DNA from: Botrimarina mediterranea
Lineage (GTDB): Bacteria > Planctomycetota > Planctomycetia > Pirellulales > Lacipirellulaceae
Reading direction: 5' to 3'
DNA length: 64,000 nt
Assembly (NCBI RefSeq): GCF_007753265.1
Contig: NZ_CP036349.1
Location: 3,195,363-3,259,362 of the forward strand
Shown here: positions 6,963 through 54,259 of the stretch, piece by piece
Numbering within the stretch: the first letter of the stretch is position 1
Layout of the letters: the number at the start of each line of letters is the position of its first letter
Notes under the pieces: model-generated
What the model was told of the DNA's origin: nothing
Seen by the model: only the letters and a program-made list of their open reading frames with translations
The model's database searches: none
Made by a program: the position numbers and the translations under genes

Positions 6963-7240
6963 TGGCTAGAGCGTGCTTCACTTGGCCGTAGCGTTTCTAG
7001 CCTCGCTCTGATCCACGGAGCAACGTGCGGAAGTCTCGCGCAGAGACGCAGAGTTGGATGCTTTCCAAGACTCACGCAAAGGCGCTAAGCCGCAAAGAAC
7101 GCGTTGCTCTGCGATCGTTTGCGGCTATGCCCATTTCTCAACGACTTTGTCTTTGCGCCTTGGCGGCTTGGCGTGAGTCTTCGCTGCCTACCCTCGGCGT
7201 CTCCGCGCGAGACGCTACGGCAAAATAAAGTACGCTATAG
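6963..7240. repeat. Long palindromic dispersed element, copy 1
   Basis: A ~278-bp sequence closely similar to 31695-31988. It is itself an imperfect palindrome with nested arms. The outer ends are CTAGAGCGTGCTT versus the complement of AAGTACGCTATAG (11/13 matches). Next come CCGTAGCGTTTC versus GAGACGCTACGG, then a CGCAGAGACGCAGAG arm with a complementary CTCCGCG..GAGACG arm, then GACTCACGC..AAGGCGCTAAG versus CTTGGCGGCTTGGCGTGAGTC. The centre is an AT-richer loop around TTTGCGGCTATGCCC. The DNA could fold into one long hairpin, as in MITEs or large REP-type elements. No open frame is conserved between the copies. The right CTCTGCGTCT arm is shorter here than in copy 2. Confidence 0.85.
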
Positions 7241-29961: not shown

Positions 29962-31701
29962 ATGCCGTCGACCATTCGCAACTCTTCTCGAAGCGGCCGC
30001 AAGGGCGGCGTCGGCCTGTTGCTGCTAGCGTTCCTAGTCGCCGCGATCGGGACGGCCCTCGTGGCATGGGTGCTGGTGACGATGTTCGGCCACAAGCAAG
30101 AGGCGCGAACGCCTTACGTGCGTGTGGTTGAACTCAACGAAGTGTCGGTCGATCCCGAGCCCTGGGGCCTCAACTGGCCGCACCAGTTCGACGGCTGGAA
30201 GTCGACCGCCGGCGACAAGTTCTATGGCGGCTCCAGCGCGATGCCCGAGTCGAAACTCGATAAGCAGCCTTGGCTCAAACGCCTCTACGCCGGTTACGCG
30301 TTCAGCATCGACTACCGCGAAGCCCGCGGCCACGCCTACATGCTTTACGACCAGGGCGTCACCGAGCGCGTCACCAAGAAGCCCCAGGCCGGCGCCTGCC
30401 TGCACTGCCACGGCTCGACCACGGTGCTGTACCGCCAGGTCGGCCTCGAAGCGATGGGCGAGGACGCCGACGACGAGGCCCTCGCCGCCCACTTCAACAT
30501 GGAAGCCGTGCAGCGCGGCTTCGAGGAAGTCAGCACGAAGACGTACGGCGAAGTCCTCGACATGCTCAAGGCCACGCCCGACGGCACGCCCGAAGAGAAC
30601 GAGCCCGTCTTCCCGCCGGCGCCCGCCGGCGGCTTTACCGGCGAGATCGCCGGACAACCCCTTCCCGAAGGTCACGCCAACACCGGCGGCGGCGAGGCCC
30701 ACCCCGTCACCTGCATCGATTGCCACGACCCCGCCACGATGGCGATCCGCGTCACCCGTCCGGGATTCGTCAACGGCATCGCCGCCCTCGCCGAAGGAGA
30801 CGCCCCCGTCCCACACATCCCGAGCATCGAGAAGTGGCGCCGCGGTGGCAAAGCGACTCCTTACGACCCTAACAAGGACGCGTCACGGCAAGAGTTGCGT
30901 TCGTTCGTCTGTGGCCAGTGCCACGTCGAATACTACTGCGCATCGAAGATGACGCTCACATTCCCGTGGAAGAACGGCCTCAAGATGGAGGACGAGGAGC
31001 AGACTTGGGAAGAGACGACCTTCCCCGATGGCAGCCCCTTCATGGACTATGCCCACGGTGAGACCGGCGCTCCCACCTTCAAGGTCCAGCACCCCGAGTT
31101 CGAGCTGTGGAGCCAGGGCGTCCACGCCCGCAACGGCGTCAGCTGCGCCGACTGCCACATGCCTTACCAGCGAGTCGGCGCCGCGAAGGTCTCGAATCAC
31201 CACGTCCGTTCACCGCTCGAGAACCTCAACTCGGCATGCCAGACGTGCCACCGCCAGAGCGAGGCAGAACTAGCCCAGCGGATCGAGACGATTCAAACCA
31301 CCAATCAAGCGCTGCTCGAACGCGCCGCCGGCGCGATGACCGCCATGCTCGACGCCATCCTCGAAGCCAAGGCCTCCGGCGCCGATGAGGAAGGCCTCGA
31401 AGAAGTCCTCAAGCTCCAACGCAAGGCCACTTGGCGGCTCGACTACGTCAGCAGCGAGAACTCGCGCGGCTTCCACGCCCCGCAAGAGGCGGCGAGGATC
31501 CTCGCCGAGTCGATCGACTACAGCCGTCAGGCCGAAGCCCTGGCGCTGCGGCTACGAGCCCCCGAGGCGCCGGACATCGAAGGCGTTCCGATCGAGCCGA
31601 TCCAGGGCGTGACGCCCACCGAGCCAATCGTCAAGGAACCGGCCGGCAAACCCGAGACCGACGCCGTGTCGTTAAACGCTCCCCCTACAACCGATGGCTA
31701 G
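29962..31701 (+). CDS. nrfA: Ammonia-forming cytochrome c nitrite reductase NrfA, CXXCH active-site variant
   Basis: 579 residues with an N-terminal membrane helix ([20 protein letters not shown]) and five haem motifs: CLHCH (146-150), CIDCH (251-255), CGQCH (317-321), CADCH (395-399) and CQTCH (426-430). CGQCHVEYY carries the catalytic Tyr, and [12 protein letters not shown] the catalytic His388. In classical NrfA the first, catalytic haem uses CXXCK with lysine ligation; here it is CXXCH, as in a known subset of NrfA (for example Campylobacter), so His probably ligates the active-site iron. About 100 residues lie between haems 1 and 2. The C-terminal tail is Pro-rich. The stop codon lies in the first bases of the palindromic element that follows. 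Confidence 0.92.
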
Positions 31702-31988
31702 AGCGTGCTTCACTTAGCCATAGCGTTTTAGCCTCGCTCTGATTTACGAAACAACGTGGGGACGTCTCGCGCAGAGGCGCAGAGACTCAGAGTTGGATGC
31801 TTTCAAGACTCACGCCAAGGCGCTAAGCCGCAAAGAACAAGTTGCTGTGCGATCGTTTTCGACTGCGCTCATTTCTCAACGACTTTGTCTTTGCGCCTTG
31901 GCGGCTTGGCGTGAGTCTTCGCTGCCGACCCTCTGCGTCTCCGCGTCTCTGCGCGAGACGCTACGGCAATAGGAAGTACGCTATAGCC
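31695..31988. repeat. Long palindromic dispersed element, copy 2
   Basis: 294 bp closely similar to 6963-7240, in the same orientation. It begins TGGCTAGAGCGTGCTTCAC, so the element starts just before the nrfA stop and supplies its TAG, and ends at CTATAGCC. Nested arms pair across the whole length: ACTCACGCCAAGGCGCTAAG (left) with CGCCTTGGCGGCTTGGCGTG (right), and CTCGCGCAGAGGCGCAGAG with TCTCTGCGCGAGACG. This copy has a longer CTCTGCGTCTCCGCGTCTCTG arm than copy 1. No conserved open frame is present. It fills most of the 403-base gap between nrfA and the fucose operon. Confidence 0.85.
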
Positions 31989-53936: not shown

Positions 53937-54259
53937 GAGTTGAAAGTTGAAAGGCGGAAGGCGGAAGCTAGTAATTACCCAGCCAACCTTATAGCCCCGG
54001 AGGGGCGGCAGCGCGTAGCCAGGGGCGCCAGCCCCTGGAACATGATGCGAGATTGGAGTGAGCCCCGGAGGGGCGACAGCAACTCAGTTTGCCGAGTTGC
54101 TGTCGCCCCTCCGGGGCTTCGCCTCTTGAAGCGATACGGCTCCCAGGGGCTCGCGCCCCTGGCTACGCGCTGCCGCCCCTCCGGGGTTTTTGTCAAACCG
54201 TTCGTGTGGCCGGGATCGCAGCGTAGCGGTGCCCCCGGCGAATCACGGCCTAACGCCGG
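53937..54259. other. Gene-free stretch filled by a nested palindromic repeat
   Basis: 323 bases between the SRPBCC gene start and the small membrane protein stop. Most of it is the palindrome at 53995-54191; the remainder has no recognisable content. Confidence 0.6.
53995..54191. repeat. Nested palindrome of the CCGGAGGGGCGGCAGC family, ending in a T-run
   Basis: Outer arms: CCCCGGAGGGGCGGCAGCGC through GTAGCCAGGGGCGCCAGCCC (53995 to about 54038) pair with the complementary sequence at 54142-54187. Inner arms: AGCCCCGGAGGGGCGACAGC (from 54061) pair with GCTGTCGCCCCTCCGGGGCT (to 54118), with the inner loop closing on CAACTC/GAGTTG. TTTTT follows the outer arm (54187-54191). The element could fold into a very stable cruciform or RNA structure. 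The words are typical of dispersed repeats in planctomycete intergenic DNA. Confidence 0.85.

Follow-up and report, generated by a model that had tools for sequence, protein, structure and literature searches.

A dispersed palindromic element with IS630-type ends on the chromosome of the planctomycete Botrimarina mediterranea

Two long non-coding palindromes of nearly identical sequence lie within the window analysed here (the whole 64,000-nucleotide stretch of Botrimarina mediterranea DNA), and they raise the question of what kind of unit they represent and by what means it came to occupy more than one place. End-to-end alignment bears out the first-pass annotation in placing them at 6963-7240 and 31695-31988, in the same orientation and with matching 13-base ends, and shows near-identical copies in dissimilar flanks, which argues against the segmental duplication that similar flanks would have indicated. 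The borders could be drawn more sharply, with a CTAG at 6966-6969 and a 3' TATAG ending at 7240 in copy 1, and a CTAG at 31698-31701 and a 3' end at 31986 in copy 2, leaving an element proper of 269 bp and 283 bp, respectively, between the duplicated TAs (Table 1). The difference in size between the copies consists mainly of one 8-base unit per arm. The palindromic architecture described for both copies is likewise upheld by folding far beyond shuffled sequences, copy 1 as DNA (z -6.9) and copy 2 as RNA (z -11.3), with no shuffle among 200 equalling either value.

Table 1. Coordinates of the two copies of the element and their parts in the window
Feature	Position	Strand	Remarks
Copy 1 of the element with its two border TAs	6967..7239	+	Element proper 6969-7237; lies between convergent genes
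Left terminal inverted repeat, copy 1	6969..6993	+	GAGCGTGCTTCACTTGGCCGTAGCG
Right terminal inverted repeat, copy 1	7213..7237	-	TAGCGTACTTTATTTTGCCGTAGCG on the - strand
Asymmetric 40-bp linker beside the left repeat, copy 1	6994..7033	+	Absent from the diverged copies L028, L040 and L059
Nested palindromic interior, copy 1	7034..7212		Stem a TCTCGCGCAGAGACGCAGAG, stem b ACTCACGCAAAGGCGCTAAGCCGCAAAG, loop, b', a'
Copy 2 of the element with its two border TAs	31699..31985	+	Element proper 31701-31983; within the TAG stop codon of ORF 29962-31701
Left terminal inverted repeat, copy 2	31701..31725	+	
Right terminal inverted repeat, copy 2	31959..31983	-	

Terminal repeats of the IS630 type

The two terminal repeats of the element, each of about 25 bp, contain both conserved boxes of an IS630 subgroup from the same bacterial order. 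The ends of these IS elements read YTAGAGCG, about 13 variable bases and then CGTAGCG or TAGCG; in the element, the left end has both boxes at matching positions and the right end is CTATAGCG. Left and right ends of the element share only about 70% similarity, and no single IS closely matches the central part of the terminal repeat. As our first search for IS ends used the consensus of the element, the matrix built from it is partly circular, and the independent checks of the IS ends are a motif-free search for inverted repeats and a comparison among copies of the same IS. Across 30 distinct IS loci, the motif-free search returned a top inverted repeat of the matching type at 15 and no such pair at the other 15; the comparison of four copies in genome G161 and three in G221 fixed the IS ends at a TA followed directly by GAGCAGACC and a TA followed directly by GTGCGTTTC, with identity starting and stopping at those TAs to within a few bases attributable to chance. 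When the window was scored with matrices built from IS630 ends of other genomes, with none from B. mediterranea itself, the four ends of the two copies ranked 1-4 among 127,944 window positions, scoring 20.0-28.9 against at most 12.2 elsewhere with the 3'-end matrix and 23.4-31.6 against at most 10.5 elsewhere with the all-ends matrix. The terminal inverted repeats of the element are those of the IS630 family.

In light of these ends, together with the TA duplication and the empty site presented below, we are confident that the element is a non-autonomous MITE of the IS630 family (Tc1/mariner), which supports the earlier suggestion of a MITE-like element moved by an unlinked transposase and ties it to IS630. 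The family adds a further member to a known kind of element, the IS630-type MITE, and does not make up a new kind; a search of the open-licence literature found no paper describing it. A repeat spread over the chromosome of a little-studied planctomycete is thereby placed in a transposon family whose target rule can be stated.

The element resembles RUP and the Correia elements in its architecture. RUP of Streptococcus pneumoniae is described as a 107-bp element with IS630-Spn1 as its proposed mover; like our element it is short and many-copied, has IS630-like ends and TA at its termini and sometimes lies inside transposase genes (PMC2229807, PMC3049150). The element differs from RUP in its greater length, its GC-rich nested-palindrome interior, its unrelated sequence and the presence of the matching IS here only in decayed form. 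The Correia elements or NEMIS of Neisseria share terminal repeats of about 24 bp and TA at the termini, and are described as giving a hairpin transcript in Neisseria (PMC2229807), but their sequence is unrelated, they belong to another phylum, and no promoter-like site was found in the element. Closer at hand, a short element of genome G008 (L060, near 1500-1670) has end boxes identical to those of the MITE and, like it, no visible gene; it spans about 170 bp between TTA and TAA, was found in one place, by one end, and its interior is unrelated.

Copy number, target site and an empty site

The count of two copies given by the first-pass annotation proved to be an undercount imposed by the window: BLASTN against the complete genome, a single contig of 5.87 Mb, recovers at least 40 dispersed copies in unrelated flanks. 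The 88 BLAST rows include second-strand matches of identical palindromes and reduce to 40 distinct places, beside which one extra diverged copy was detected at 4066943 by its end pattern. All 40 BLAST copies were retrieved and aligned, and across them the ends hold constant positions amid unrelated flanking sequence. Both ends are scorable (at least 20 of 27 each) in 35 of the 40, which range from 249 to 304 bp; short copies dispersed over 40 places and free of a transposase gene are what is expected of a MITE. Derived variants recur at unlinked sites, namely an inverted core in L027, L029, L032 and L033 and an identical deletion in L020 and L023; the former suggests an inversion followed by further spread. 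The most similar pairs of copies are 96-97% alike, implying that the last activity was not extremely old.

ISY100, a member of the IS630 family, is described as inserting almost only at TA, which is duplicated (PMC2170065). Of the 35 scorable copies, 29 carry a TA at the left border and likewise 29 at the right, six lacking it on either side; the base outside it is C or T in 34 on the left and G or A in 32 on the right. These figures, which answer the proposed check for target-site duplications in the way anticipated for an IS630-family MITE, point to a target YTAR with duplication of the TA. A search for empty sites was also productive, for one copy: the joined flanks of L007 align unbroken to an 88-bp high-copy palindromic repeat of the B. 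mediterranea genome and two relatives, and uninterrupted homologues of this host repeat show TTAG, as in L148, where the element sits in L007, whose left TA reads TT, so that the duplication is not intact in that very copy. The 88-bp palindrome itself (beginning GTGGGAGGCGTCTCCAGACGCCGAT) has dozens of copies in B. mediterranea, G001 and G003 (L148, L154 and others), and none was found in G002.

Five of the 35 scorable copies, window copy 2 included, have as their target a TA within the stop codon of a reading frame that shows a coding signature, five more frames having passed the length test without such a signature. At window positions 31699-31701 and in L009, L027, L032 and L038 the element interrupts the stop codon that ends the frame upstream of it, and its own first base contributes to preserving a stop. 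At L013 and L029, read by eye, removing the element and one TA restores an inverted repeat that the insertion had cut. With L039 excluded, hairpin loops are no more frequent at insertion sites (6/39) than at intergenic YTAR controls (22/134). A preference for paired sites was considered and dropped: at least 12 enclosing pairs occur at 27 of 39 sites against 64 of 134 intergenic controls (p 0.03), but coding YTAR controls reach 155 of 240, giving no sign of such a preference.

Source of the transposase and of the interior

The Pirellulales IS630 elements to which the ends are compared (e.g. L084, L085 and L137) have the YTAGAGCG and CGTAGCG boxes at equal spacing and the TA target, but are about 1.03 kb long and carry two overlapping transposase frames, whereas the MITE has none; they match the NCBIfam IS630 model (127.6 bits, cut-off 100) and Pfam DDE_3. 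At L084 (1022-2010) the transposase spans the two overlapping frames as if made via frameshifting. IS630-type genes were recovered from 30 of 43 genomes of the family by a PF13358 search, and matches to the L084 protein from 58 of 396 genomes of the order; the named IS630 records come mostly from Planctomycetota, including Adhaeretor mobilis (Lacipirellulaceae, Pirellulales), with some from other phyla. A functional cognate transposase in the same genome is usual for a MITE and not required. Searches of the B. mediterranea genome with PF13358 and a subgroup query found no intact transposase of the matching subgroup; they yielded one decayed subgroup copy, with 48-50% protein identity to L084 and an end unlike that of the element, and one intact DDE_3 gene (L105/L111) of another subgroup, which the subgroup query missed and whose locus lacks matching ends. 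On this basis the element is probably immobile now, or else served by a transposase not recognised here.

A 27-base end pattern allowing up to three mismatches has matches in four of the 43 genomes of the family, B. mediterranea included; in B. mediterranea itself, by-eye comparison with the copy list places all its matches at ends of such short elements. In G012 and G013 the match is the end of an apparent transposase gene at a contig edge, that of G013 showing 78% identity to the L084 transposase over 23 residues. A 24-base end pattern had no match in the contigs of the other genomes. We infer mobilisation of the element in trans: an IS630 transposase would bind the ends, cut the element out and join it to the TA of a YTAR site, duplicating that TA, and copies would multiply as the donor site was repaired or replicated. 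This enzyme would since have been lost, leaving its decayed relative, or would be one that we failed to recognise.

The interior appears to have a different history. Parts of it occur in three of the four genomes of the genus, B. mediterranea included, and none in the fourth, while among these genomes the terminal ends are found only in B. mediterranea. In G001 a nested palindrome of both stems lies between genes without terminal repeats (L046/L058). Palindromes of the same words without terminal inverted repeats were also seen in that genome in apparent gene gaps at L044, L046 and L051. As same-genus genomes carry the interior without the ends, the ends may have taken up a repeat already present in the genome, which is the simplest reading of the sequences; the interior would then probably be a palindromic repeat, resident in the lineage, that became enclosed by a pair of IS630 ends. 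The reverse is possible, namely that the ends were lost in the relatives. A review describes the question whether MITE motifs arose by capture from existing chromosomal sequences as open (PMC2229807), and an interior with relatives in sister genomes that lack terminal inverted repeats offers a concrete case that bears on how MITEs acquire their cargo.

Gene context and competing explanations

With gene calls that are crude, 24 of 38 classified copies lie between convergent genes, 14 between tandem genes and none between divergent genes (39 copies considered, one unclassified, L039 left out), against 6 convergent, 13 tandem and 5 divergent gaps among the window gene gaps of at least 50 bp, a small control (Fisher's test, p 0.004 for convergent and 0.007 for divergent). 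This bias fits selection against promoter damage, which would have removed copies that hit promoters and left those downstream of genes; a role at gene 3' ends would fit too. A rival explanation would make the element a host-maintained 3'-end structure (a two-way terminator, insulator or mRNA stabiliser) that was spread and kept for its function, whatever its mover. The giant hairpin folded by both window copies and the excess of convergent gaps speak for it; yet the same bias is expected from selection against harmful insertions, the gene calls were crude and the control small, and neither a T-tract terminator-like site nor a promoter was found in the gap of either window copy. Nor does the element behave as a conserved structured RNA: in an alignment of 28 of the 40 copies (dropping four whose core is inverted and eight that are truncated, carry deletions or have diverged), changes on both sides that keep the pairing occur in 4 of 72 pairs, with a covariation term of 0.01. 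We regard the explanation by a host-maintained 3'-end element as unlikely. We would entertain, as a speculation that is doubtful but worth stating, a combination in which two IS630 ends turned a captured, lineage-wide palindromic intergenic repeat into a mobile 3'-end cassette, so that transposition spreads a regulatory or insulating hairpin of the host, the cassette landing between convergent genes and on stop codons, YTAR containing TAG and TAA.

Explanations that dispense with an IS630-type mover fare worse than the MITE reading. The first-pass annotation had offered a REP-type element as an alternative, and a REP or BIME moved by a RAYT (Y1) transposase would account for a palindromic, intergenic repeat in a genome with five Y1_Tnp matches. 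REPs are described as palindromes of 20-40 bp, tagged with GTAG or CGTC and linked to a RAYT gene (PMC3733652), and our element is neither a short tagged palindrome nor so linked: a length of 250-304 bp, ends of IS630 type and a TA target are at odds with a REP, and the sole Y1 match touching a copy is a frame that the copy itself (L012) interrupts, with resemblance on both sides. That assignment comes from a 53-position match and a reading of the frames; taken singly, the two pieces of 26 and 28 residues matched nothing in Pfam or NCBIfam. A RAYT mover is, in our judgement, scarcely credible. It is also very unlikely that the palindromes were assembled independently from widespread words of 8-base period, or multiplied by segmental duplication, with no transposition at all; the words do recur across the genus in other arrangements, and such an origin is conceivable for the interior, but for the full element it is refuted by the fixed ends in unrelated flanks, the border TAs, the empty site and the derived variants common to unlinked copies.

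Rfam has no family at either copy (6967-7239 and 31699-31985). Elsewhere in the window, on the minus strand at 53993-54038, it reports an Acido-Lenti-1 RNA (RF01687) with 43.4 bits against a gathering score of 37.
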